DNA of 64,000 bases from Nonomuraea rhodomycinica (GTDB lineage Bacteria > Actinomycetota > Actinomycetes > Streptosporangiales > Streptosporangiaceae): positions 248,001 to 312,000 of the forward strand of contig NZ_JABWGO010000001.1 of assembly GCF_013363995.1 (NCBI RefSeq), written 5' to 3'. The stretch's first letter is position 1, and each line of letters starts with the position of its first letter. The translations under genes were made by a program, and so were the position numbers. Of this stretch, positions 1,871 through 32,451 are shown in pieces. Below the pieces are notes generated by a model. The model was not told the origin of the DNA, did not search any database, and saw only the letters and a list, made by a program, of their open reading frames with translations.

Positions 1871-2895
1871 CGGACGAGCCGCGCCGCGCCGGGCGCGAGC
1901 GTGAAGGTCGTGCCGCAGGGCTCGTAGGCGCCCGTCGCCGGGTCGAAGGCGGCGCCGATCCCGTCGAGCGTGACCTCGGCCGGCTCGTCGTGGCGGGCGT
2001 TGCAGACGAACAGCCGGCGCTCGCCGTAACGGCCCACCAGGACGTCGCCGGTCCGCTCGACCGACGTCCAGCCGGACAGCTCGGCCGCGACCGGGCGCAG
2101 CCAGCGGGTGTTGAGGTCGCGCACCATGCCGTAGCGCTCGGTCGGCACGCCGGCCCCGTCGATGAGCGCGGACCGGAAGCCCTCGCCGCGGGCGGGGTCG
2201 GGCGTCCAGTAGGTGAAGTACTGGATGCCGGTGTAGCCGTAGGCCAGGGCGGTGTTGACCTGCCAGGCCAGCTCGGCGGCCGTCGGCTCGCGGTGCCCGT
2301 CGTAGGCGAGCGTCTGCACGTACATCCAGGCGGGCAGGCCGGCCCGGCGGGCGTGCTCGCGCACCGTCGCCAGGTCGGCGAGGTAGCCCTCGTCGAAGCC
2401 GTCGGCGAGGAACGGGTAGCGGTCGAAGGACAGCACGTCGGGACGGACGAGCCGGGTGAACTCCCCGACGTAGGCGTCGTAGGGGCCGTCCGTGGCGTGG
2501 CTGGGGAAGAGGTTGGCGTAGGCGAGGGCGCCGGCCGCGCGCACGGCGGCGACCCCGGCCGCCACCCTCGGGAACTGCCCGGCGTGCGGCTCGTCCATGA
2601 GGCTGAGGCCGCGGAAGGAGCGGAACGGGCGGTAGTCCTCCACGACCCGGCCGATCAGCGGCGCGGGGTCCACGTCCAGCTCGCGCATGACGACGTCCAC
2701 GCGCGGGTCCGAGGCGACGAGCACGCCGAGCCCCGCCTCCTCGGCGCAGGCCAGCGCGTGCCGCAGGATGACCCGGTCGTTGAGGTAGTTGCCGGTGATG
2801 ACCAGGTCGATGCCGGCGTCGGCGATCTCCCGGTAGCGGGCGGCCGTCGTCTCGTGGGGCGGCGGCGGCCAGAAGGCGGCGATCGTCAGGGTCAC
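1867..2895 (-). CDS. cytoplasmic TIM-barrel glycoside hydrolase-like protein
   Basis: A 342-residue protein without signal peptide, beginning at a GTG that overlaps the SIS gene stop. The first ~260 residues read as a TIM barrel (segments such as GIDLVITGNYL, GLSLMDEPHAG, DVLSFDRYPF and TGIQYFTYW). A short beta-rich C-terminal domain follows. The acidic residues of MDEPH and the aromatic-rich strand ends resemble family-2/42-like or DUF4434-like glycosidases, but I cannot assign a GH family. Its place between an importer and a sugar kinase suggests it cleaves an imported glycoside intracellularly. Catalytic residues are inferred, not proven. Confidence 0.6.
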   Translation of the reverse strand: MTLTIAAFWPPPPHETTAARYREIADAGIDLVITGNYLNDRVILRHALACAEEAGLGVLVASDPRVDVVMRELDVDPAPLIGRVVEDYRPFRSFRGLSLMDEPHAGQFPRVAAGVAAVRAAGALAYANLFPSHATDGPYDAYVGEFTRLVRPDVLSFDRYPFLADGFDEGYLADLATVREHARRAGLPAWMYVQTLAYDGHREPTAAELAWQVNTALAYGYTGIQYFTYWTPDPARGEGFRSALIDGAGVPTERYGMVRDLNTRWLRPVAAELSGWTSVERTGDVLVGRYGERRLFVCNARHDEPAEVTLDGIGAAFDPATGAYEPCGTTFTLAPGAARLVR

Positions 2896-3638
2896 AGCGC
2901 GCCGGTCCTGATCCGCCCGGCGTAGCGGGCCACGAGGGCGTCGTTGCGCTCGTCGGAGCCGGGGATGTTGGCCGACAGGTAGACGGGAGGGACCGTTCCA
3001 TCGGCCAGCAGCAGGCCGATCGCCTCGGCGACCATGAGCTGCACGGCCAGCGCCGAGGTGATCGAGGAGATGCCGCAGACGGCGCCGTGCTCGGTGGTCA
3101 GGACGGCGTCGCCGTACGGGGCGAGGTTGTCGATGACGATGTCCGCCAGCTCGAACAGCCGCTCCCCCGACGGATGGCGCGAGGTGATGGCGCCGGAGTG
3201 CTCCAGGGAGGTGATCGCGATCAGCGGCAGGCCGCGCTCCTTGACCAGCCGGGCCATCTCCACGGTGGAGCCGTTGCCGCCCGAGTTGGAGGCGATGACG
3301 AAGGCGTCGGACTTCTCGATCGTGTGCAGGGCCAGCACCTCGTGCGCGGTGCGCGGGTCGCGCTCGGCCAGCGGGTCGAACCCGGCGGGGTCGGCCGAGC
3401 CCAGCACCACCGGGTCGCGCAGGGTGAGCCGGTTGGTCGGGATCAGGCCGCCGGCCCGGCCCGCCACCTCCAGCGCCACCGCCTCGGAGTGCCCGGTCCC
3501 GTAGGCGTGGACGACGCCCCCGGCGCGCACGCTGTCGGCGATCAGCACCCCCGCCTGCCTGATGGCGGGCAGCTGGCCGGTCATCAGCCGGTCCAGGCGG
3601 GAGCGCGCCTCGTCGGCGAAGGCCATCACAAGATCCAT
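2892..3638 (-). CDS. SIS-domain phosphosugar-binding protein
   Basis: A 248-residue single SIS domain protein of the sugar isomerase/UPF0309 type, expected to bind or isomerise a phosphosugar in the cytoplasm. The signature loops YGTGHSE, SNSGGNGST and EHGAVCG are visible. I chose the ATG at 3638 because GGGGGA lies six to seven bases upstream. An ATG at 3653 or TTG at 3656, overlapping the permease stop, would add five or six residues. It sits between the second permease and the glycosidase-like gene, so it probably handles the phosphorylated product of this operon. Confidence 0.8.
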   Translation of the reverse strand: MDLVMAFADEARSRLDRLMTGQLPAIRQAGVLIADSVRAGGVVHAYGTGHSEAVALEVAGRAGGLIPTNRLTLRDPVVLGSADPAGFDPLAERDPRTAHEVLALHTIEKSDAFVIASNSGGNGSTVEMARLVKERGLPLIAITSLEHSGAITSRHPSGERLFELADIVIDNLAPYGDAVLTTEHGAVCGISSITSALAVQLMVAEAIGLLLADGTVPPVYLSANIPGSDERNDALVARYAGRIRTGAL

Positions 3639-3652
3639 GAATTGTTCCCCCA

Positions 3653-4456
3653 TCAACGGTTCATGCCGGCGGTCAGCCCGGCGACGATCTGGCGCGTGGC
3701 CAGGACGAAGAGCACGACCAGGGGGATCGTCGTCATCACCAGACCGGCGAAGAGCGTGCCCCAGTCGTTCTGGAACTGGCCGAAGAAGTGGGTGAGGCCG
3801 ACCGGCAGGGTCAGCTTGGTCTCGTCCCGCATCAGGACCAGGGGGTAGAAGAAGTCATTCCAGATCGGCACGAACTGGAACACCACCACGGTCGCCAGCG
3901 CGGGCCGCACCAGGGGCAGCATCACGTGCCAGAAGGTCGCGAACGGCCCGGCGCCGTCCAGGGCGGCGGCCTCGTCGAGCTCGTGCGGGAGCTGGCGGAA
4001 GAAGGCGGTCAGGACGAAGACGTTGAACGGGACCGACCCGGCCGCGTAGACCAGCACCAGCCCGGTCAGCGAGTCCACCAGCCCCATGCCCTCCAGCAGG
4101 TAGAACAGCGGCAGCACGCCCAGGTGGGCGGGCAGCGTCATGCCGGAGACGAAGTAGGCGGCGAACATGCCGCGCCCCCGGAACTCCCTGCGCCCGAGGG
4201 GGTAGGCGGCCAGCAGCGAGACCACGGCGCCCAGCAGCACGGCGCCGACCACGACGAGCGCCGAGTTGACGACGTAAGTGGAGAAGGACGCCTCCGTCCA
4301 CGCCTTGACGTAGTTGCCGAGCCCACTGGGCGGGCCGATCGGCCGGTCGAAGATCTCGCTGGTGGGCCGGAACGAGCTGAGCAGCATGACGAGCAGCGGC
4401 GTCATCGAGAAGGCGGCGTAGCCCCACAGCAGGACCTTGACGATCGACGCCCTCAC
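3653..4456 (-). CDS. carbohydrate ABC transporter permease (MalG-like)
   Basis: A 267-residue inner-membrane permease of the CUT1 carbohydrate uptake family with about six transmembrane helices. The EAA loop (DEAAALDGAG followed by LPLVRPAL) that contacts the ATPase is near residues 175-205. The GTG start overlaps the preceding permease stop by four bases, which indicates translational coupling. It forms the membrane channel together with the upstream permease. No ATP-binding subunit is encoded in the operon, as is common for actinobacterial CUT1 importers that share an MsiK-type ATPase. Confidence 0.92.
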   Translation of the reverse strand: MRASIVKVLLWGYAAFSMTPLLVMLLSSFRPTSEIFDRPIGPPSGLGNYVKAWTEASFSTYVVNSALVVVGAVLLGAVVSLLAAYPLGRREFRGRGMFAAYFVSGMTLPAHLGVLPLFYLLEGMGLVDSLTGLVLVYAAGSVPFNVFVLTAFFRQLPHELDEAAALDGAGPFATFWHVMLPLVRPALATVVVFQFVPIWNDFFYPLVLMRDETKLTLPVGLTHFFGQFQNDWGTLFAGLVMTTIPLVVLFVLATRQIVAGLTAGMNR

Positions 4457-5352
4457 GTCTTCCTCCTCAGGACCCGCTCCAGCAGCAGCGTCGAGCCGAA
4501 GATGAAGGTGAACATGAAGACCGCCAGCGCCGAGGAGGTGCCGAGCGCGTTGACGTCGCCGGAGGCGAAGGCCGTGCGGTAGAACAGCAGGCCCAGCACG
4601 TCGGTGGCGCCCGCCGGGGCGCCGTTGGAGCCGCCGAGCGCGTAGACCAGGGCGAAGGTGCCCATGCTGCCGATGAAGCTGAGGATCGTGACAGTGGCCA
4701 TGGCGGGCTTGAGCAGCGGCAGCGTGATGCGCCAGAGCACCTGCCAGGAGCCGGCGCCGTCGGTCCTGGCGGCCTCGGCGTACTCCTGGGGGATGCCGCC
4801 GAGCGCGGCGCTGAACAGCAGCATCGGGAAGCCCACCCACTGCCAGGTGGTGATGACGATGACGGTCGGCAGCGCGGTGTCCGGGTCGCCGAGCCACGGC
4901 ATCGCCAGGCCGAGCGGCTTGAGCAGCGCGTTGACCGGGCCGAAGGCGGGGCTGAGCAGCAGGGTCCACAGGTAGCCGATGACCAGCGGGTTGACCAGGT
5001 ACGGCAGGGCGAACATGGTCTGCAGCGCCCGCTTGCCGCGCCGTACGCGCGACAGGGCGAGCGCGAAGGCCAGGCCGAGCGTGTTCTGCACCAGCATGGT
5101 GCCCGCGAACAGCAGCGCGTTGTGCCCCAGCGCGGGCAGCAGCTGGTCGAGGAAGGCGCCCGACAGCAGGCCGGCGTAGTTGTCCAGCCCGGCGAAGCTG
5201 TCGCGCAGCGTGCCCTTCCAGGAGAAGAAGCTGTAGGTCAGGCCGGTGAACAGCGGGTAGACGACGAAGGCGGAGTAGAGGAGGAGGGCGGGGATCAGGA
5301 ACAGGTACGACGAGCCGTTCCCTCCCTGTCCCCGCCGCGCGCCTAGAGCCAT
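4453..5352 (-). CDS. carbohydrate ABC transporter permease (MalF-like)
   Basis: A 299-residue CUT1-family permease. It has an N-terminal helix (YLFLIPALLLYSAFVVYPL), further membrane helices and the EAA motif (EYAEAARTDGAG and LPLLKPAM) near residues 200-230. The ATG start lies inside the last codons of the binding-protein gene (10-bp overlap), and its stop overlaps the next permease start. It should pair with the downstream permease to import a sugar delivered by the lipoprotein encoded immediately upstream. Confidence 0.92.
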   Translation of the reverse strand: MALGARRGQGGNGSSYLFLIPALLLYSAFVVYPLFTGLTYSFFSWKGTLRDSFAGLDNYAGLLSGAFLDQLLPALGHNALLFAGTMLVQNTLGLAFALALSRVRRGKRALQTMFALPYLVNPLVIGYLWTLLLSPAFGPVNALLKPLGLAMPWLGDPDTALPTVIVITTWQWVGFPMLLFSAALGGIPQEYAEAARTDGAGSWQVLWRITLPLLKPAMATVTILSFIGSMGTFALVYALGGSNGAPAGATDVLGLLFYRTAFASGDVNALGTSSALAVFMFTFIFGSTLLLERVLRRKT

Positions 5353-6578
5353 GTGGACACGCTCTTGTCGAGCTGTTCGGCCGCCTGCTTCGCGGTGATG
5401 CGGCCGAGCAGCATCTCCTGCAGCGCCTTGGAGAAAACGGCGGCCGACGAGGGGTTGCCGTAGGCGAACTCGTTCATGAAGTAGGTCGCGCCGTGCTGGT
5501 CGAAGGTGGTGGCCACCTCGCCGAGGAGCGGGTCCTTGGGCGTGACGCCGGGCACGGCGGAGAAGATGCGCAGGGTGTCGGTGTAGAGCTGGCCGTAGTC
5601 CTTGGAGGCCAGCCAGGCGGCGAACTTCAGCGCCTCGGCCTTGTGCTTGGTCTTGACGTTGACGCCGTACGAGCCGTCGGTGAAGCCGGGCATGAGGCCC
5701 TGGCCCTCGGGCACGGGCGGCGTGAAGACGCCCAGCTCGACGTCCTTGGCGTTCTCGGTGAAGAAGTTCAGCTCCCACAGGCCGCCGGGGAACATGGCCG
5801 CCTTGCCGGAGGAGAACAGGATCTGCGCGTCGGTGTAGGAGACGCCGGCGGCGTTCTCGGGGAAGTACGGCTTGAGCTTGTTGAGCTGGTCGATGCCCTC
5901 GACGAAGCGCGGGTCGGTGAACTTCTTCTGCTTGGCCTTGACGGCGGCGATGAACTCGTCGCCGCCCCAGTGGGCGGTGCCGAAGATGCTCGCCACGATC
6001 GGCAGCATCCAGTCGTCCTTGCCGCCGAAGGCGAACGGGATGACCCCCTTGGCCTTGAGCTTCCCGGCGGAGGCGATCATCTCGTCGTAGGTCTTGGGCG
6101 GGGTGATGCCGTTGTCCGCGAAGATCTTCTTGTTGTAGATCACCTGCAGGGTCTGCACGGCGAACGGCACGCCGTACACCTTGCCGTCCTTGTCGCCCTT
6201 GGCGTAGCGCAGGACCTTCTCGTCGTAGCCGGCCAGGCCGGGCACGTCCTTGGTGTCGAGCGGCAGCAGCCGGCCGGCCTCGACGAGCGGCTGCAGGTTG
6301 GCGCCGGCGCGCAGCCACGCCAGGTCGGGGCCGTTGTCGCCGGCCAGGCCGGTGGACAGGATCGTGTCGTACTCGGTGGCGGTGGTGAAGGAGCGGGCGT
6401 CGACGTCGACGCCGGGGTTGGCCTTCTCGTACTCGGCGAACATCTTGTCGTAGTTGGCCTCGGGACCCCATCCCCAGACCGAGAGGGTGATCTTGCCCTG
6501 GTCGGCACGGGTGGTGGTCGAAGGGGCACAGGCGGTGACCGCCATCGCCAAGGCGACAGCGGCGGCGGCAAGGCGCAT
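5343..6578 (-). CDS. carbohydrate ABC transporter substrate-binding lipoprotein
   Basis: A 411-residue extracellular solute-binding protein (SBP family 1). It starts with a lipoprotein signal peptide whose lipobox ends V-T-A-Cys17, so it is tethered to the outer face of the membrane. The mature part has typical features of CUT1 binding proteins: VWGWGPEANYDKM near the N-terminus, NKKIFADNG, and a Lys-rich C-terminal lobe. It begins eight bases after the regulator stop and is the first structural gene of the importer. The ligand cannot be read from sequence; the kinase and SIS neighbours suggest an amino sugar or a glycoside of one. Confidence 0.92.
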   Translation of the reverse strand: MRLAAAAVALAMAVTACAPSTTTRADQGKITLSVWGWGPEANYDKMFAEYEKANPGVDVDARSFTTATEYDTILSTGLAGDNGPDLAWLRAGANLQPLVEAGRLLPLDTKDVPGLAGYDEKVLRYAKGDKDGKVYGVPFAVQTLQVIYNKKIFADNGITPPKTYDEMIASAGKLKAKGVIPFAFGGKDDWMLPIVASIFGTAHWGGDEFIAAVKAKQKKFTDPRFVEGIDQLNKLKPYFPENAAGVSYTDAQILFSSGKAAMFPGGLWELNFFTENAKDVELGVFTPPVPEGQGLMPGFTDGSYGVNVKTKHKAEALKFAAWLASKDYGQLYTDTLRIFSAVPGVTPKDPLLGEVATTFDQHGATYFMNEFAYGNPSSAAVFSKALQEMLLGRITAKQAAEQLDKSVSTWL

Positions 6579-22434: not shown

Positions 22435-23412
22435 GTGAGCCTGCCCGCCCTGCCCGATCTCGGGGCGCCGCCGCCGCCCGTCGAGCCGGCCCTTGACCCG
22501 TACCACGTCTACCTCGACTCGCTCACCAGCCCCGAGTCCCGCCGCTCCATGCGCGGCTGCCTCGACCGGCTCGCCCGGCTGCTCACCGGCGACGAGAGCG
22601 CGACGGGCGCGGGCCAGCCGTGGCACCTGCTGCGCTACGAGCACACGGTCCGCATCCGTACGATGCTGACCGACCAGGGCTGGTCGGCGGCGTACGTCAA
22701 CAAGCACCTGGTCGCCCTGCGCCGGGTGCTGAAGGAGGCGTGGCGGCTCGGCCGGACCAGCGCGGAGGACTACGCCCGCGCCTCCGACCTCGCCCCGGTG
22801 CGCCAGAGCCGCCTGCCCACCGGCCACCACGTGCCGCCGGAGGTGGTGGGCGCGGCCCTGGCCGCCTGCGACGACTCGCCCGCCGGGGTGCGCGACGCGG
22901 CGCTCATCGCGGTGCTGTACTCGACGGGCTGCCGGCGCGCCGAGATCGGCGGGCTCACGCTGGCCGACTACGACCCGGGCGGCCGTTCGCTGCGGGTGCG
23001 CGGCAAGCGCGACAAGGAGCGCCTGGTGTACCTGACGGCCGACGCCATCGGCCTGGTGGAGCGGTGGCTCGCGCTGCGCGGCGGCGCGCCGGGGGCGCTG
23101 TTCAGCCCGATCAGCAAGGCGGGCCGCGTCCGCACGCGCGACGGCCGGCCGGCGGGGCTGACCGGCCAGGGCATCGCCGACATCCTGACCCGGCGCTTCG
23201 GCCAGGCGGGGGCGTCGCGGCGCACGGCGCACGACTTCCGGCGCACGTTCATCGGCGAGCTGCTGGACGCGGGCGTGGACCTCGCGACGGCGCAGGCGCT
23301 CGTGGGGCACTCGTCGCCGGCCACGACGGCCCGCTACGACCGCCGCCCGGAGCGCACCCGCCGCGAGGCCGTCGACCGCCTCCGCCTGCCGGCCCCGCGC
23401 CCGCTGTCCTGA
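22435..23412 (+). CDS. tyrosine recombinase (integrase family)
   Basis: A 325-residue site-specific tyrosine recombinase. An N-terminal SAM-like core-binding domain (about residues 20-115) precedes the catalytic domain. The catalytic set is complete: Arg167 (STGCRRAE), Lys in KRDKE, His266-x2-Arg269 (HDFRR), His292 (VGHSS) and Tyr301 (ARYDR). It looks like a XerC/D-like or integron-like stand-alone enzyme. No excisionase, tRNA gene or att-like repeat was found nearby, so there is no sign of an integrated element. TAAGAT (22422-22427) before the GTG suggests a leaderless transcript. Confidence 0.9.
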   Translation: MSLPALPDLGAPPPPVEPALDPYHVYLDSLTSPESRRSMRGCLDRLARLLTGDESATGAGQPWHLLRYEHTVRIRTMLTDQGWSAAYVNKHLVALRRVLKEAWRLGRTSAEDYARASDLAPVRQSRLPTGHHVPPEVVGAALAACDDSPAGVRDAALIAVLYSTGCRRAEIGGLTLADYDPGGRSLRVRGKRDKERLVYLTADAIGLVERWLALRGGAPGALFSPISKAGRVRTRDGRPAGLTGQGIADILTRRFGQAGASRRTAHDFRRTFIGELLDAGVDLATAQALVGHSSPATTARYDRRPERTRREAVDRLRLPAPRPLS

Positions 23413-24569: not shown

Positions 24570-25391
24570 ATGAGGATTCTGGTCATCGGAGCGGGGGGCG
24601 CGCAGGGCGGCGCCGTGGCGCGGCGCCTGGCCGCCGAGGGGTACGCGGTGCGCGGGCTGTCGCGCACGGGCTCGGCGCCGGAGGGGGTGGAGCCGTTCGC
24701 GGCCGACCTGGGCGACGCGGCGCGGGTCGCGGCGGCGTTCGCCGGGGTGACGCACGTGTCGGTGACGTTGCCGCTGGTGTTCGAGGCGGAGCTGGTCGAG
24801 TCGTACGTCCGCAACATTCTGGACGCGGCGTCGGGGGCGCAGGTGCGGCGGCTGGTGCTCAACACCGGCAACCGGCTGCCCGGGCGGGACACGGGAGTGG
24901 CGGCGTTCGACACGCGCAGGGCGGCGGCCGCGGCGGCGCTGGCGTCCGGGGTGCCGTCGGTGGCGCTCAGCCCGCCGCTGTACCTGGAGAACCTGGCGGC
25001 GCCGGGGGTGCTGGAGGCGGGCGTGCTGCGTCATCCGCTGCCGGGTGACGTGCCGGTGTCCTGGCTGGGCCACGCCGACCTGGCCGCCGCCACATCGGCC
25101 GCCCTGCTGGGCGAGGACCGCGTCGGGACCACGGTCGCGCTCGGGGGACCGCCGGTCACGGGGGTGGAGCTGGCCGCCGCCCTCGGGGCGCGGTACGAGG
25201 AGCTGGACGTGGCGGCGTTCGAGGCGGGGCTGGCGGCGGCGCTGGGGGCGGGGGCCGCGGCCGGGGTCGCGGACACCTACCGCTGGATCGCCGCGCACGG
25301 CCGCGATCTGTACGCCGAGGGGGCGGGCGGCGCGATCCGGGTGACGTCGCCGCGAGAGTGGCTCGCCGCCCAGCCGTGGGCCGCCCGATGA
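24570..25391 (+). CDS. NmrA-like NAD(P)-binding protein
   Basis: A 273-residue atypical SDR with dinucleotide motif VIGAGGAQGGAVAR (residues 5-18) and no Tyr-x3-Lys catalytic pair. It resembles NmrA-type sensor/reductase proteins. A GGAGG lies ten bases before the ATG. Its stop overlaps the start of the next gene (ATGA), so the two are co-translated. With the divergent AraC regulator this forms a small stress-type module like the MarR-NmrA pair at 21-22 kb. Confidence 0.85.
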   Translation: MRILVIGAGGAQGGAVARRLAAEGYAVRGLSRTGSAPEGVEPFAADLGDAARVAAAFAGVTHVSVTLPLVFEAELVESYVRNILDAASGAQVRRLVLNTGNRLPGRDTGVAAFDTRRAAAAAALASGVPSVALSPPLYLENLAAPGVLEAGVLRHPLPGDVPVSWLGHADLAAATSAALLGEDRVGTTVALGGPPVTGVELAAALGARYEELDVAAFEAGLAAALGAGAAAGVADTYRWIAAHGRDLYAEGAGGAIRVTSPREWLAAQPWAAR

Positions 25392-25972
25392 CGCGGCACG
25401 GCACGGACGGCATCGACGCCCCGGCCGCGGCGCGGGCCGTGACGACGCAGGGGAACGCGGCCCTGGCCGAGACGGCACAGGCGGAGGCGGCCCTGGTCGA
25501 GACGGCACAGGCGGAGGCGGCCCTGGTCGAGACGGCGCGGGCGGACGCGGCCCTGGTCGAGACGGCGCGGGCGGGCACGGCGCTGGAGGGGCTGGTGCGG
25601 GCCGAGGTGGTGCGGCATCACGAGGTCATCGGGCGCTGGCTGGCGGGGACGGCGCCGCGTGAGGCGTTCGGGGAGTTCGCCGGCGCCCACGCCCCCGGTT
25701 TCGCCCTCGTGGCCCCGGACGGGCGGCTGCTGTCGCGGGCCGAGGTCCTGGCCGAGGTGGAGGCGGCGCACGGGCGCGTGCCGGGAGCCCGGATCGAGAT
25801 CCGCCACGTCACCGTGGTCGCCGCCGCCGGGTCCCTGGTGGTGGCCGCGTACGAGGAGTGGCAGCAGGGCCGGGGCCGGCGCTCGACGGTCGTGTTCGAA
25901 CGCGGCCCCGCCGACCGCCTGAGCTGGCTGCGCCTGCACGAGACCCTCCTGGGGCGGTCAGGCGCCGAGTAG
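25388..25972 (+). CDS. SnoaL-like/DUF4440-like protein with N-terminal repeats
   Basis: A 194-residue protein. Residues ~20-65 are four to five copies of a 10-residue helix-prone repeat (AALVETAQAE and variants). The C-terminal ~120 residues look like an NTF2/DUF4440-type cone fold (LVRAEVVRHHEVIGRWL and ARIEIRHVTVVAAAGSLVVAAYEEW). The ATG overlaps the previous stop. The repeat region has heptad-like alanines and could be a helical spacer. It ends in a 15-bp overlap with the convergent TetR gene. Function unknown. Confidence 0.75.
   Translation: MTRHGTDGIDAPAAARAVTTQGNAALAETAQAEAALVETAQAEAALVETARADAALVETARAGTALEGLVRAEVVRHHEVIGRWLAGTAPREAFGEFAGAHAPGFALVAPDGRLLSRAEVLAEVEAAHGRVPGARIEIRHVTVVAAAGSLVVAAYEEWQQGRGRRSTVVFERGPADRLSWLRLHETLLGRSGAE
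25441..25590 (+). repeat. five in-frame 30-bp repeats
   Basis: Units start at 25441, 25471, 25501, 25531 and 25561. The second and third are identical, and the outer units are diverged. Each encodes ten residues, so the frame is kept. The period and total length match the array at 17191-17340, although the sequences are unrelated. Confidence 0.9.
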
Positions 25973-26557
25973 CGCGAAGGCGTGCTCGGCCGCGCTCACC
26001 GCCTCCCGTTCGACCTCCTCGAGGGGACGTCCGGCGACCAGCGCCGCCCAGGAGCGGCGGGCGAGCACGCGCTGCGCGGAGAGCACCTGCCCGGCCAGCA
26101 GCTCGGCCGTCAGCCGGTCGGTGGTCTCGGCGAGCGCGTCGGCCAGCGCGGCCTCGTCCGCGGCCATGTACTGGAACACCCGCGCCGCCAGCCCGGGCGT
26201 GGAGAAGACGAGCCGGTAGTACGCCACCACCTGCGGATGGTCGTTCAGCCCGGTCGTCGGCTCGTGGCGGGCCAGGCCCTCCAGGAAGTGGCGGCGGAGC
26301 GCCCCGAGCGGGCTCTCGCCCGGCGCCCGCTCGCGCACCACGCGGGCGGCCTCGCCCTGGTGGTCGGCGATGCGATGCAGGACGAGGTCCTCCTTGGTCG
26401 GGAAGTACTTGAACAGCGTGGGCTTGGAGACCCGCGCCGCGGCCGCCACCTCGGCGACCGGCACCTCGTCGAAGCCCCGCTCCATGAAGAGCGAGATGGC
26501 CGCCTCGGAGATCGCCTCGTGGATCCGCTGCCGGTGCTGCTGCCTGAGTCCTGTCAT
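25958..26557 (-). CDS. TetR-family regulator (next to helR-like gene)
   Basis: A 199-residue TetR regulator. The HTH is VPVAEVAAAARVSKPTLFKYFPTKEDLV (about residues 32-60), with a helical ligand domain after it. It is transcribed divergently from the HelR-like gene, and two matching palindromes fill the gap, so it very probably represses both. The ligand would be the natural inducer of the helicase, plausibly a rifamycin-like molecule or a stress metabolite. Its stop overlaps the convergent repeat-protein gene. Confidence 0.9.
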   Translation of the reverse strand: MTGLRQQHRQRIHEAISEAAISLFMERGFDEVPVAEVAAAARVSKPTLFKYFPTKEDLVLHRIADHQGEAARVVRERAPGESPLGALRRHFLEGLARHEPTTGLNDHPQVVAYYRLVFSTPGLAARVFQYMAADEAALADALAETTDRLTAELLAGQVLSAQRVLARRSWAALVAGRPLEEVEREAVSAAEHAFALLGA

Positions 26558-26580
26558 GCGTCCACTCTAGCAAGAAAGTG

Positions 26581-26610
26581 TTAACCTGGTTAAAGTCTTA
26601 ACCGAGTTAA
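26581..26610. promoter_or_regulatory. two TTAACC-type operators
   Basis: TTAACCTGGTTAA (26581-26593, perfect arms around one base) and TTAACCGAGTTAA (26598-26610) are 17 bp apart, between the divergent TetR and HelR-like genes. No rifamycin-associated element was seen here. Confidence 0.75.
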
Positions 26611-26631
26611 TGCTTTGCGGGAGGGATGTTC

Positions 26632-28701
26632 ATGGACGGACAGGAGCTGGGCGGCCTGACCGAGGAGCTGCGTCACGTCGAGCGGTGCCGCGCCGGGCTG
26701 AACCGCATGCTCGACGCCGCGCGCCACAACGTGATCGTCGGCGAGACCGTCGCCGGCGACCGCTACAGCGCCGAACGCCTCGGCCGCCACCTCAAGAGCC
26801 TGGCCAAGGAGTTGAGCGAGGAGCCGGAGGGCCCGCCGTTCTTCGGCCGCCTCACCTTCGGCCCCGCCGGGAGCGCCGCCGCCTCCGCCGAGCACGCGGG
26901 GCGCACCTACTACATCGGCCGGCGGCACATCCCCGGCGAGCACGGCGGGGCGCCCGTCGTCATCGACTGGCGGGCGCCCGTGGCCCGCTCCTTCTACCGG
27001 GCGGGCGCGCGCGACCCCCAGGGCGTGGCGGTGCGCCGCCGGTTCGGCTGGGCGGGCACCACGCTGACGTCGTACGAGGACGAGCGGCTGGGACGCGGCG
27101 AGGAGCGGCGCAGCCGCCTGCTCGCGGCCGAGATCGAGCGGCCCCGCGTCGGCCCGATGCGCGACATCGTCGCCACGATCCAGCCCGAGCAGGACGACCT
27201 CGTCCGCGCCGGCCTGGACGACTCGATCGCCGTCCAGGGGGCGCCCGGCACCGGCAAGACCGCCGTGGGCCTGCACCGGGCGGCGTACCTGCTGTACGCG
27301 CACCGGCAGCGGCTCCAGCGCGGCGGCGTCCTCGTGCTCGGCCCCAACCGGGCCTTCCTCGGCTACATCGCGGCCGTCCTGCCCGCGCTCGGCGAGGTGG
27401 ACGTCGAGCAGACGACCCTGGACGGGCTCATCGCCTCGGTGCCGGTCCGGGCGGAGGACGGCGAGCGGGCGGCGGCCGTCAAGCACGACGCCCGGATGGC
27501 CGGGGTGCTGCGCCGGGCCCTGTACGGGCGGATCGCCAAGCCGGCCGAGCCGGTCACCGTGGCCGAGGGGTCGTACCGGTGGCGGGTGGACGAGGACGAG
27601 CTGCGCCGGATCGTGGACGACACGCGGCGCGACGCCCTGCCGTACGGGATCGGGCGGGAGCGGGTGCGGGCCCGGGTGGTGGCGCTGATGCGGCGCCAGG
27701 CCGAGGCGCGCGGCCACAGCACGAACGCCGCCTGGGAGCGCCGCACCGGCCGCGCCCTCGGGCCGTGGCTGGACGGGATCTGGCCGGCGGTACGGGCCGA
27801 GCAGGTGGTGCACGAGGTGCTGTCCGGCCGATGGACCGCCGCCGGGGGGAAGAGCGTGCTGAGCGACGCCGAGTGGGCGGACGTCGTCTGGGAGCGGCCC
27901 GCGCGCACGTACAAGAGCGTGAAGTGGTCGGCGGCCGACCTGGTGCTGATCGACGAGGTCGCCGGGATGCTGGAGCGCCCGCGCGGCTACGGCCACGTCA
28001 TCGTGGACGAGGCGCAGGACCTGTCGCCCATGCAGTGCAGGGCCGTGGCGCGGCGGGCCGAGCACGGCTCCCTCACCGTGCTCGGCGACCTGGCGCAGGG
28101 CACCACGCCGTGGGCGGCCCGGTCGTGGCCGGAGCTGATGGCGGCCCTGGGCCGGCCGGAGGCCCGGGTGGTGGAGCTGACGACCGGCTACCGGGTGCCG
28201 GCGGCCGTGGTGGAGCTGGCCAACCGGCTGCTGTCCGCCCTGGACGCCGGGGTGCCGGCGACCCGCTCGTACCGTTCGGACGGGCTGCTGCGCGTCACCC
28301 GGGTGCCGGGCGTCGAGCAGGGGGTGGTGGCCGCGGCGCGCGGGGCGCTGGAGCTGGAGGGGTCGGTCGGCGTGATCGCCGCCGACGCGGACGCCGAGAG
28401 GCTGAAGGCCGCGCTGTGGGACGCGGGCCTCGACGTGGGCGGGCGGCTGAGCGTGGTGCCGGTGACGCTGGTCAAGGGACTGGAGTACGACCACGTGGTG
28501 CTGGCCGAGCCGGCCGCGATCGCCGAGGCGGAGGAGCGGGGGCTCAACCGGCTGTACGTGGCGCTGACGCGCGCGGTCTCCCGGCTGGACGTCGTCCACG
28601 CCCGGCCCCTGCCGCCGGAGCTGGAGGGGCCCGGCGAGGGCTCCTCGGGGGCCCCCGAGGAGGGCGCGTGTGAAAGTTTCTCGACCGCCGGCTCAGCGTG
28701 A
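26632..28701 (+). CDS. helR: HelR/HelD-like RNA polymerase-associated helicase
   Basis: A 689-residue superfamily I helicase-like ATPase. The N-terminal coiled-coil arm covers residues ~1-60, Walker A GAPGTGKT is at 203-210 and Walker B VDEAQD at 458-463. Helicase motifs include GDLAQGTTPWA, TTGYRVP, TLVKGLEYDHVVL and LNRLYVALTRAVSRL. HelD proteins recycle stalled RNA polymerase; the actinobacterial HelR branch displaces rifamycins and gives resistance. The second ATG (26632) has GGGAGGG at six bases, whereas the first (26626) abuts it. Distinguishing HelR from general HelD needs phylogeny. Confidence 0.82.
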   Translation: MDGQELGGLTEELRHVERCRAGLNRMLDAARHNVIVGETVAGDRYSAERLGRHLKSLAKELSEEPEGPPFFGRLTFGPAGSAAASAEHAGRTYYIGRRHIPGEHGGAPVVIDWRAPVARSFYRAGARDPQGVAVRRRFGWAGTTLTSYEDERLGRGEERRSRLLAAEIERPRVGPMRDIVATIQPEQDDLVRAGLDDSIAVQGAPGTGKTAVGLHRAAYLLYAHRQRLQRGGVLVLGPNRAFLGYIAAVLPALGEVDVEQTTLDGLIASVPVRAEDGERAAAVKHDARMAGVLRRALYGRIAKPAEPVTVAEGSYRWRVDEDELRRIVDDTRRDALPYGIGRERVRARVVALMRRQAEARGHSTNAAWERRTGRALGPWLDGIWPAVRAEQVVHEVLSGRWTAAGGKSVLSDAEWADVVWERPARTYKSVKWSAADLVLIDEVAGMLERPRGYGHVIVDEAQDLSPMQCRAVARRAEHGSLTVLGDLAQGTTPWAARSWPELMAALGRPEARVVELTTGYRVPAAVVELANRLLSALDAGVPATRSYRSDGLLRVTRVPGVEQGVVAAARGALELEGSVGVIAADADAERLKAALWDAGLDVGGRLSVVPVTLVKGLEYDHVVLAEPAAIAEAEERGLNRLYVALTRAVSRLDVVHARPLPPELEGPGEGSSGAPEEGACESFSTAGSA

Positions 28702-30248: not shown

Positions 30249-31549
30249 TCAGGTGGTGGCCAGGGCGACCGTCGGGGACAGGCGGGCGGCGCGCATGGCC
30301 GGGTAGATCCCGGCGATCGTGCCGATGACCAGGGTCGCCCCCACCGCCCCGCCGATCGCCCACGGCGGCACCACCGGCGGCCAGCCGCGCGCCACCGCGT
30401 ACCCGGCGCTGGCCACCGTCCCCAGCGCCGCCCCCGCGACCCCGCCGAGCGCCGACAGCAGCAGCGACTCGGTCAGGAACTGCACCCGCACCTGCCCGCG
30501 CGTGGCGCCCAGCGAGCGGCGCAGCCCGATCTCCTTGCGTCGCTCCAGCACCGAGATGACCATGGTGTTGGCCACCCCGACGCCGCCGACCAGCAGCGCG
30601 ACGGCGCCGAGACCGAGCAGCAGGTTCGTGAACGCGCCCGCGGCGGCGGCGCGCGCGGCCAGCGCGTCGGAGGGCCTGCTCACCTCGACCTCGCCCGGGT
30701 TCTCCGGGTTGACCGTGCGGGCCAGCACGTCGCGGACCGCCTCGACGGACTCCTCGGCGGACCGCTCGTAGATCGTCGTGGGATGCCCGCCGAAGCCGAG
30801 CAGGCTCTCCGCGGCCGGGAACCCCACGAGGGCCGACCGGTCGATCTCGGGCGCCAGCGGCATCGTCCGCAGGATCCCGACGACCGTGAACCACCGCCCG
30901 CCCATCCAGACCCGCACCCCGGTGCGGGTGATGCCGAGCCGCGTGGCCGCCTCGGAGCCGAGGACGACGGCGGGCCGGCGCTCGGTGGCGGCGTTCAGCC
31001 AGGCGCCCTCGGCGACCCGGCCCTCCAGGGTGGCCAGCAGCTCGGTGGTGGCGGCCTGCACGGCGATGCCGCCGGTCACGGCCTCCGGGATGCGGTCGGT
31101 ACGGCGCACCGTGGTCTTGACCGTGCCCGTGGCCGAGGCCGTGCGCACGGGACCGATGCGCTTGACCATGTCGAGCGCCGTGAGCGGCAGCTCCGCCTCC
31201 TCGCCGAACATGGTGCGGCCCGGCGCGACGGTGAGCAGGTTGGTGCCCAGCCGGTCGAGCTGGCGCATGAGCTGCTCGCGCGACGACGACGAGATGCCGA
31301 TGACCGCGATCATCGTGGCGATGCCGATGGCGATGCCCAGGGCCGACAGGAAGACCCGGGCGGGACGGGCCCGCAGCCCGGCGGCTCCCACCCGCAGCAC
31401 GTCGGCCGGGCCGAGCCGGGCCGGGCGGGGCCCGCGCGGCGTGCGCCCCTTCATGCCCGCGTCCCCTGGCGGCGCGCCCCGGCTCATGCCCGCGTCCCCT
31501 GGCGGCGCGCCCCGGCTCATGTCCGCGTCCTCTGGCCGTGTGCGCCGGC

Positions 31550-31553
<4 letters not shown>
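30249..31553 (-). CDS. MacB/FtsX-type ABC permease
   Basis: A 434-residue permease with four transmembrane helices: one near residue 60 ([25 protein letters not shown]) and three at the C-terminus. A ~200-residue extracytoplasmic MacB_PCD-like domain lies between. The segment [19 protein letters not shown] is the FtsX signature. The ATG overlaps the ATPase stop (ATGA). Residues 1-33 are three 11-residue repeats ([11 protein letters not shown] type), absent from normal family members, so an alternative start at the third or fourth Met is possible. It forms a tripartite exporter with the ATPase and adaptor. Confidence 0.9.
31453..31551 (-). repeat. three 33-bp repeats each carrying an ATG
   Basis: Units 31453-31485 and 31486-31518 are identical; 31519-31551 is diverged. 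In frame they encode [11 protein letters not shown]. Each unit places an ATG in the permease frame, so there are several possible starts at the ATPase-permease junction. Confidence 0.9.

Positions 31554-32451
<898 letters not shown>

Follow-up and report, generated by a model that had tools for sequence, protein, structure and literature searches.

A short HelD without the primary-channel loop and its divergent AcrT-like TetR regulator: a candidate inducible transcription-rescue module in Nonomuraea rhodomycinica

Some actinomycetes have up to five paralogues of HelD, an RNA polymerase recycling protein, for a reason described as unclear in the available text of PMC8655204 (Larsen et al. 2021). 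The same text places the size difference among HelD proteins in their arms, the primary-channel loop (PCh-loop) being an insert of the arms, and includes a 680-residue HelD of Streptomyces coelicolor, SCO4195. The closest described relatives are the class II HelD of Mycobacterium smegmatis (MsHelD; PDB 6YXU and 8Q3I), which has the PCh-loop, and HelR (S. venezuelae SVEN_6029, M. abscessus MAB_3189c; NF041254/NF041258). Residues E484 and D485 at the tip of the loop are required for rifampicin resistance, as stated in the accessible part of PMC10719064. Here we describe a locus in a 64,000-nucleotide stretch of Nonomuraea rhodomycinica DNA (assembly GCF_013363995.1, contig NZ_JABWGO010000001.1, positions 248,001 to 312,000; hereafter the window), in which a gene for a short HelD (helD) is divergent from a gene for an AcrT-like TetR/AcrR-family regulator (tetR). 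We think it rather probable that the two genes form a self-contained, inducible module for transcription rescue that is controlled by the TetR protein.

Both open reading frames lie where the initial annotation placed them (Table 1) and are separated by 68 bp. TetR_N matches the regulator (1.1e-15, Pfam/NCBIfam), and its AlphaFold model (pLDDT, predicted local distance difference test, 93.7) has the TetR_N helix-turn-helix and an all-helical ligand domain, in keeping with the TetR/AcrR family. HelD/HelR-type models match the motor protein (best 1.4e-94, Pfam and NCBIfam), and homology to solved HelD structures together with superfamily-1 motor motifs places it in the HelD family. It shares the fold, domain order, ATPase motifs and DWRAP motif of MsHelD (phmmer 1.5e-72), which is also the best PDB match of its model (pLDDT 81.4; Foldseek 8e-41, template-modelling (TM) score 0.60). 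It reaches none of the curated cut-offs of four NCBIfam HelD/HelR models, with scores and cut-offs of 258.6/750 and 317.7/1100 bits for HelR, 291.8/1051 for MsHelD and 154.4/419 for BsHelD. As compared with MsHelD, it lacks about 63–67 residues of the PCh-loop: the alignment breaks off at query residue 451 and chain residue 448 and resumes at query residue 449 and chain residue 516, and MsHelD residues 449–515, which include the counterparts of E484/D485, have no counterpart. Between flanking anchors it has 45 residues versus 107–108 in HelR and in the two long HelDs of the genome. All 73 short HelDs in a 76-row alignment have 41–47 residues between these anchors and no PCh-loop, the feature by which the available part of PMC11464796 recognizes Class II HelD. 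Because the loop is missing, displacement of rifampicin in the manner of HelR is probably impossible for a short HelD, and the motor probably answers a stress other than rifampicin.

In a tree of the 76 rows, built by a quick method without bootstrap, the short HelDs cluster together (72 rows; SH-aLRT, Shimodaira–Hasegawa-like approximate likelihood ratio test, 100), with the exception of L143, which sits on a long branch. The window HelD, to which N. montanisoli HelD is 94% identical, falls within group A of these proteins (39 rows, SH-aLRT 100), and HelR and the two long HelDs lie on the opposite side of the tree. Two of the 15 rows assigned to the sister group B (L105 and L108) fall next to A. 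The protein had initially been described as HelR/HelD-like and credited with HelR-like protection of RNA polymerase. The assignment to the HelD family holds, whereas membership in HelR was rejected on score, loop, clade and the rifamycin-associated element (RAE) considered below, although both belong to one HelD superfamily. An anti-phage helicase was also rejected, the only matches of that kind being weak, UvrD-like GajB ones (best 52.4 bits). We found no report in the literature in which the short-HelD clade was tested for function. The group B gene of the same genome (L039, 4041–8410) adjoins a gene for an XPB DNA repair helicase (873.6 bits, cut-off 610).

The association of the two genes was followed through 118 TetR homologues, comprising 68 hits in 65 of 200 genomes of the family (f1; E<=1e-40) and 50 hits outside f1 from 394 class genomes (E<=1e-45), where 12 f1 hits were dropped as already counted. 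A HelD gene lies within 2.5 kb of 77 of the 118 (44/68 in f1 and 33/50 outside). It is divergent from tetR in 43 of the 44 f1 loci and convergent in L143; outside f1 (f20 and f19) the order is tetR to helD in 32 of 33 loci and helD to tetR in one. Flavin adenine dinucleotide (FAD) monooxygenases are found beside 24 homologues (16/68 in f1 and 8/50 outside), with weak matches in L145 (142 bits) and L154 (110 bits). ATP-binding cassette (ABC) or major facilitator superfamily (MFS) genes are the sole marked neighbours of 7, and 11 have no reference gene nearby, a class that may conceal neighbours because some loci end at contig edges. The regulators linked to monooxygenases and to HelD interleave on the TetR tree, where the monooxygenase label needs five changes (5–7 in bootstrap trees). 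Of at least 588 confirmed HelD-A stretches, the best 80 were taken as named loci, and the TetR gene is present at 41 of these (Nonomuraea, Microtetraspora, Microbispora, Kribbella, Actinomadura, Streptomyces and others). In 11 group B loci no TetR gene was found nearby in flanks of up to 1.5 kb, one of them (L106) being cut by a contig end.

Within the genus, TetR homologues are present in 47 of 54 genomes (E<=1e-50); both genes occur in 44 genomes, HelD only in 1, TetR only in 3 and neither in 6, one of which (G019) is 63% complete. This co-occurrence has a Fisher p of 2e-5 with phylogeny ignored, and an alternative, hand-sorted table gives 7e-6. The exceptions in the raw table include a TetR gene cut by a contig end (G035, L024), a HelD gene in pieces (G594, L203) and a genome with only a 55% identical TetR, beside a monooxygenase (G020, L338). 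Since six of the 54 genomes have neither gene, the pair is not essential. The link between TetR and HelD is real and conserved despite the varying gene order, and the circuit, with an operator of its own, is conserved in Nonomuraea and its relatives and in Streptomyces; further genomes that have it are presumably Frankia-like. This conservation supports the initial suggestion of a dedicated TetR circuit that would differ from the RAE route.

Two near-identical operators had been reported between the genes, and both are present (O1 and O2), with their centres 17 bp apart. The pattern TTAACCNNGTTAA with at most one mismatch matches only these two sites in the window, no match was obtained in any of 100 shuffles of the window, and the pattern of the operator pair occurs once in the 9.6-Mb genome. 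The −35 element of a putative tetR promoter falls within O1, and variants of it occur in relatives; a strict sigma-70 scan found none. The composite operator precedes helD at all 40 genus loci scored, with an exact core at 39 and a difference at the first base in L036. This count excludes L037 and L045, two genus loci without an adjacent TetR gene that retain merely operator-like sequence. The core pattern matches in 38 of the 54 genus genomes, 36 of them at the helD locus as judged by the coordinates of HelD and TetR matches. Off-locus matches number 11, close to the 8 found with a reversed control pattern, and a genome-wide regulon in the genus was rejected on that ground; the operator is nearly restricted to the helD–tetR locus. 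Upstream of the named HelD-A genes, the operator score reaches an empirical p<=0.01 at 17 of the 41 loci with TetR and at 0 of the 39 without. A dyad score of >=10 upstream of tetR, which at most 1% of shuffles reach, was obtained in f1 at 36/39 HelD-A loci and 4/4 further HelD loci; the corresponding figures are 7/24 for monooxygenase loci, 0/6 for ABC/MFS loci and 0/12 for others. This scoring left aside the 16 HelD-linked loci of f19. In f20 none of 17 loci reaches the score upstream of tetR, and operator-like sequence lies directly upstream of helD in most loci inspected. In Nonomuraea dietziae (L265), operator-like sequence persists before a HelD-A gene that is without an adjacent TetR gene (upstream of 4001).

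Table 1. Features of the helD–tetR locus (window coordinates) and of the separate HelR locus of the genome
Feature	Position	Strand	Basis
tetR, AcrT-like TetR/AcrR-family regulator, 199 aa	25958..26557	-	ORF (open reading frame) list, TetR_N, AlphaFold
Putative tetR promoter: −35 TTAACC 26588–26593, −10 TAGAGT 26564–26569, spacer 18	26564..26593	-	inference
Composite operator: four TTAA half-sites in approximately one dyad (GTTAACCTGGTTAA-AGTC-TTAACCGAGTTAAT)	26580..26611	.	sequence and conservation
Operator O1, TTAACCTGGTTAA, perfect 13-bp palindrome	26581..26593	.	pattern scan
Operator O2, TTAACCGAGTTAA, imperfect palindrome	26598..26610	.	pattern scan
GGAGGG, likely ribosome-binding site	26620..26625	+	spacing best for ATG 26632, better than for helD start 26626
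helD, short HelD without PCh-loop, 691 aa (689 aa from ATG 26632)	26626..28701	+	ORF, profiles, tree, model
Walker A, GAPGTGKT	27238..27261	+	invariant except A in 25-row alignment
Site of the ~63 extra residues (PCh-loop) found in HelR and in both long HelDs of the genome, absent here	27967..27987	+	alignment
Walker B/motif II, DEAQD	28006..28020	+	D, A, Q and D fully conserved, E almost fully, in 25-row alignment
HelR gene and Rgt-like gene, probable rifamycin response of the genome	L042 (G000:C33) 2577–6248	same direction	profile and RAE scan

In the mechanism that we propose, a TetR dimer would bind the paired operator and repress both tetR and helD, as is suggested by the position and conservation of the operator and by analogy with other TetR proteins. 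The TetR would be released, and HelD made, in response to a small molecule, for which an antibiotic or a polyketide of antibiotic type is the likeliest candidate. By homology with the solved HelDs, the short HelD, powered by ATP, would remove stalled RNA polymerase from the nucleic acid by means of its secondary-channel and clamp-opening arms, probably without displacing rifampicin as HelR does. What sets one HelD clade apart is the absence of a functional loop and, across many lineages, a sensor of its own. Since the signal that releases this sensor can be sought, the question of why some actinomycetes have several HelD paralogues becomes testable. The module also joins antibiotic regulation by AcrT with transcription rescue by HelD, and no printed link between them, nor any paper that associates helD with a TetR-type regulator, was found among the open-licence literature. 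The main text of PMC8655204, as available, contains no occurrence of TetR and no statement that the short forms lack the loop, and that of the AcrT paper (PMC8546615), which treats antibiotic biosynthesis and acyl-CoAs, contains none of HelD, helicase, RNA polymerase or SCO4195. The nearest report is of TetR/AcrR genes among those behind a rifampicin-sensing dual-promoter arrangement (PMC12802891, accessible part).

A clue to the signal comes from the homologues linked to monooxygenases. Family libraries were run on 7 of the 24 enzymes (L119, L122, L123, L127, L128, L143 and L151), which score 239–408 bits against the rifampin monooxygenase model (cut-off 800), and therefore none is a member of that family. 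The best model is the unnamed subfamily PRK06184 for L119, L127, L128 and L143 (over its cut-off), PRK08244 for L122 and L123 and rifampin monooxygenase for L151. Among solved structures, L119 is closest to a putative rifampin monooxygenase (5KOW, 1.2e-55), followed by a polyketide oxygenase (3.1e-54). In L122 and L123 the TetR gene lies between genes for a rifampin-monooxygenase-like enzyme and an Mgt-like macrolide glycosyltransferase (512–520 bits, cut-off 700), the latter exceeding the cut-off of a broader MGT model. In L151 (1498–5093) the TetR gene is divergent from a rifampin-monooxygenase-like gene that is followed by an Rgt-like gene, whose product matches only Rgt in NCBIfam at E<=1e-30 (393.2 bits, cut-off 800); directly before the Rgt-like gene is an RAE-like site (2766–2784, 15/18). 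The TetR and RAE circuits may meet at L151, and this branch of the TetR family would possibly answer a rifamycin-like antibiotic. The scan gave 12–14/18 at the other 23 monooxygenase loci and 12–13/18 at 13 HelD loci, with no clear RAE. A monooxygenase, a TetR and a distant HelD-family gene share one locus in L143 (2884–6703); the HelD-family protein (604 aa) has no insert of the size of the PCh-loop and sits on a long branch next to HelR. These neighbours, taken as resemblances and not as assignments, point to antibiotics as the signal for this TetR family, and an antibiotic sensor is favoured because homologous TetRs adjoin rifampin-monooxygenase-like, Mgt-like and Rgt-like genes. We propose more tentatively, as a possibility open to considerable doubt, that AcrT-like TetRs are widespread actinomycete sensors of a class of transcription-stalling antibiotics with two exchangeable responses: in one, a HelD lacking the loop dislodges stalled RNA polymerase; in the other, the drug is destroyed by a monooxygenase, at times accompanied by a glycosyltransferase. 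Candidate classes would include ansamycins, aromatic polyketides (quinone-type or other) and macrolide-type RNA polymerase inhibitors. If this is true, it would constitute a second, RAE-independent circuit that protects transcription.

The initial annotation saw no RAE at this locus, in agreement with our scan with a consensus of 18 defined bases: no RAE-like 19-mer is present at the module, the best matches being 11/18 near the locus and 14/18 in the 64-kb window. A HelR gene is present elsewhere in the genome (contig C33, 2586–4703; 1305.9 bits, cut-off 750), with a gene for an Rgt-like glycosyltransferase upstream in the same direction (548.7 bits, cut-off 800) and, at 6230–6248 just before the latter, an RAE-like 19-mer that matches at 17 of 18 bases. 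Because of this arrangement the rifamycin circuit is probably separate from the window module, and rifamycin defence in the genome is probably handled by the separate HelR. It is highly improbable that the window protein is itself a HelR that ejects rifamycin from RNA polymerase, with TetR in place of the RAE as rifamycin sensor. The two proteins do share a superfamily, and TetRs homologous to the present one adjoin rifampin-monooxygenase-like enzymes, with the additional Rgt-like gene and RAE-like site of L151. However, the window HelD scores far below both HelR cut-offs, lacks the loop like all the short HelDs aligned, and is set apart in the tree from HelR and the long HelDs, and the genome has an over-cut-off HelR with an RAE-like site at another place. 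In S. venezuelae, moreover, SVEN_6029 is the only one of five helD genes reported to be induced by rifampicin (PMC8655204, available text).

The Streptomyces orthologue of the window TetR is probably AcrT (SCO4194/SAV4017, grouped with SACE_3980 in the AcrT subfamily), an assignment that rests on context: SCO4194 (AcrT_Sc) is numbered beside SCO4195, and SoxR sites recur. In S. avermitilis a SoxR site is reported for SAV_4017 (AcrT_Sa) and a putative one for SAV_4018, a quinone oxidoreductase (PMC4146615, accessible part); a SoxR-box-like dyad lies upstream of tetR in the Streptomyces tetR–helD loci L097 (698–722), L327 (3236) and L332 (3248), and the divergent gene of L097/L164 (one genome) is quinone-oxidoreductase-like (159 bits against a cut-off of 296.8). 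SCO4195, like SCO4316 about 680 residues long and so similar in size to the window HelD, is probably its orthologue because of this numbering. AcrT forms two complexes, seen as shifted bands, on acrT–SACE_3981 intergenic DNA (PMC8546615, available part, as for AcrT below), two binding sites are reported next to acrT, a feature shared with the paired operator here, and the acyl-CoA regulators FasR and FadR are among the PDB matches of the TetR model (ranks 13 and 14, TM 0.5–0.6). These points speak for an AcrT-kind acyl-CoA sensor that couples polyketide precursor supply to expression, helD being repressed until antibiotic production and then sustaining transcription in the organism's own secondary metabolism. 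We consider this alternative rather unlikely, since the printed AcrT motif, nttGaTc, is unlike the conserved TTAACC-N-GGTTAA operator, the operator in the genus is essentially confined to helD and does not extend to precursor genes, and the neighbours of homologous TetRs suit drug sensing better. It is quite unlikely that the protein is an ordinary genome-maintenance HelD, its TetR mainly fixing a constant low level by autoregulation without a drug ligand. The repair helicase gene beside the sister HelD-B, the 0/11 group B loci with such a TetR and the expression of the S. coelicolor helD genes in ordinary growth would suit this explanation; on the other side stand the detoxifying-type genes beside the same TetR subfamily, the several changes of the monooxygenase label on the TetR tree and the lack of both genes in 6/54 genus genomes (G019 being only 63% complete). 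An antibiotic-released rescue module remains our preferred reading, against which several observations count. No TetR was matched at 39 of the 80 named HelD-A loci, mostly of Micromonosporaceae (tblastn, E<=1e-15, flanks of up to 4 kb), and the motor can therefore exist without it; in G006 and G032, counted as having both genes in the raw table, the TetR (56–58%) is away from HelD. All four S. coelicolor helD genes are expressed throughout ordinary growth (PMC8655204, section 3.5). The reported ligands of AcrT are acyl-CoAs, AcrT_Sc is reported as an activator of actI-ORF1 and not as a repressor, and the mismatch between the AcrT motif and the window operator tells against the preferred reading as well. 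The monooxygenases merely resemble rifampin monooxygenase, four of the seven fit PRK06184 best, and for L119 a polyketide oxygenase is a near-equal match. As to the ligand, the neighbouring genes favour an antibiotic and the one published study found favours acyl-CoAs.

Two further reports concern related genes. In S. lincolnensis, secondary citations describe a TetR (SLCG_2919) that represses an adjacent gene for an 'ATP/GTP-binding protein' (SLCG_2920) linked to lincomycin resistance, a pair that might correspond to the one in the window. SCO4316, the second short HelD gene of S. coelicolor, is tabulated with a value of 2.37 among the genes that novobiocin raises (PMC6637917, accessible part).

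The surroundings of the module are variable. A local antibiotic cluster was rejected: among ten named relatives, an NmrA-like gene is kept in 4, a DUF4440-like gene in 4, a MacB-type permease gene in 2 and a pectate lyase gene in 1. In the window the MacB-type ABC permease gene (30249–31649) lies downstream of the module. The DUF4440-like open reading frame (25358–25972) contains a 30-bp tandem repeat of 5.5 copies (25422–25586), and a gene for an XerC-like tyrosine recombinase (22435–23412) lies about 2.5 kb from the module.

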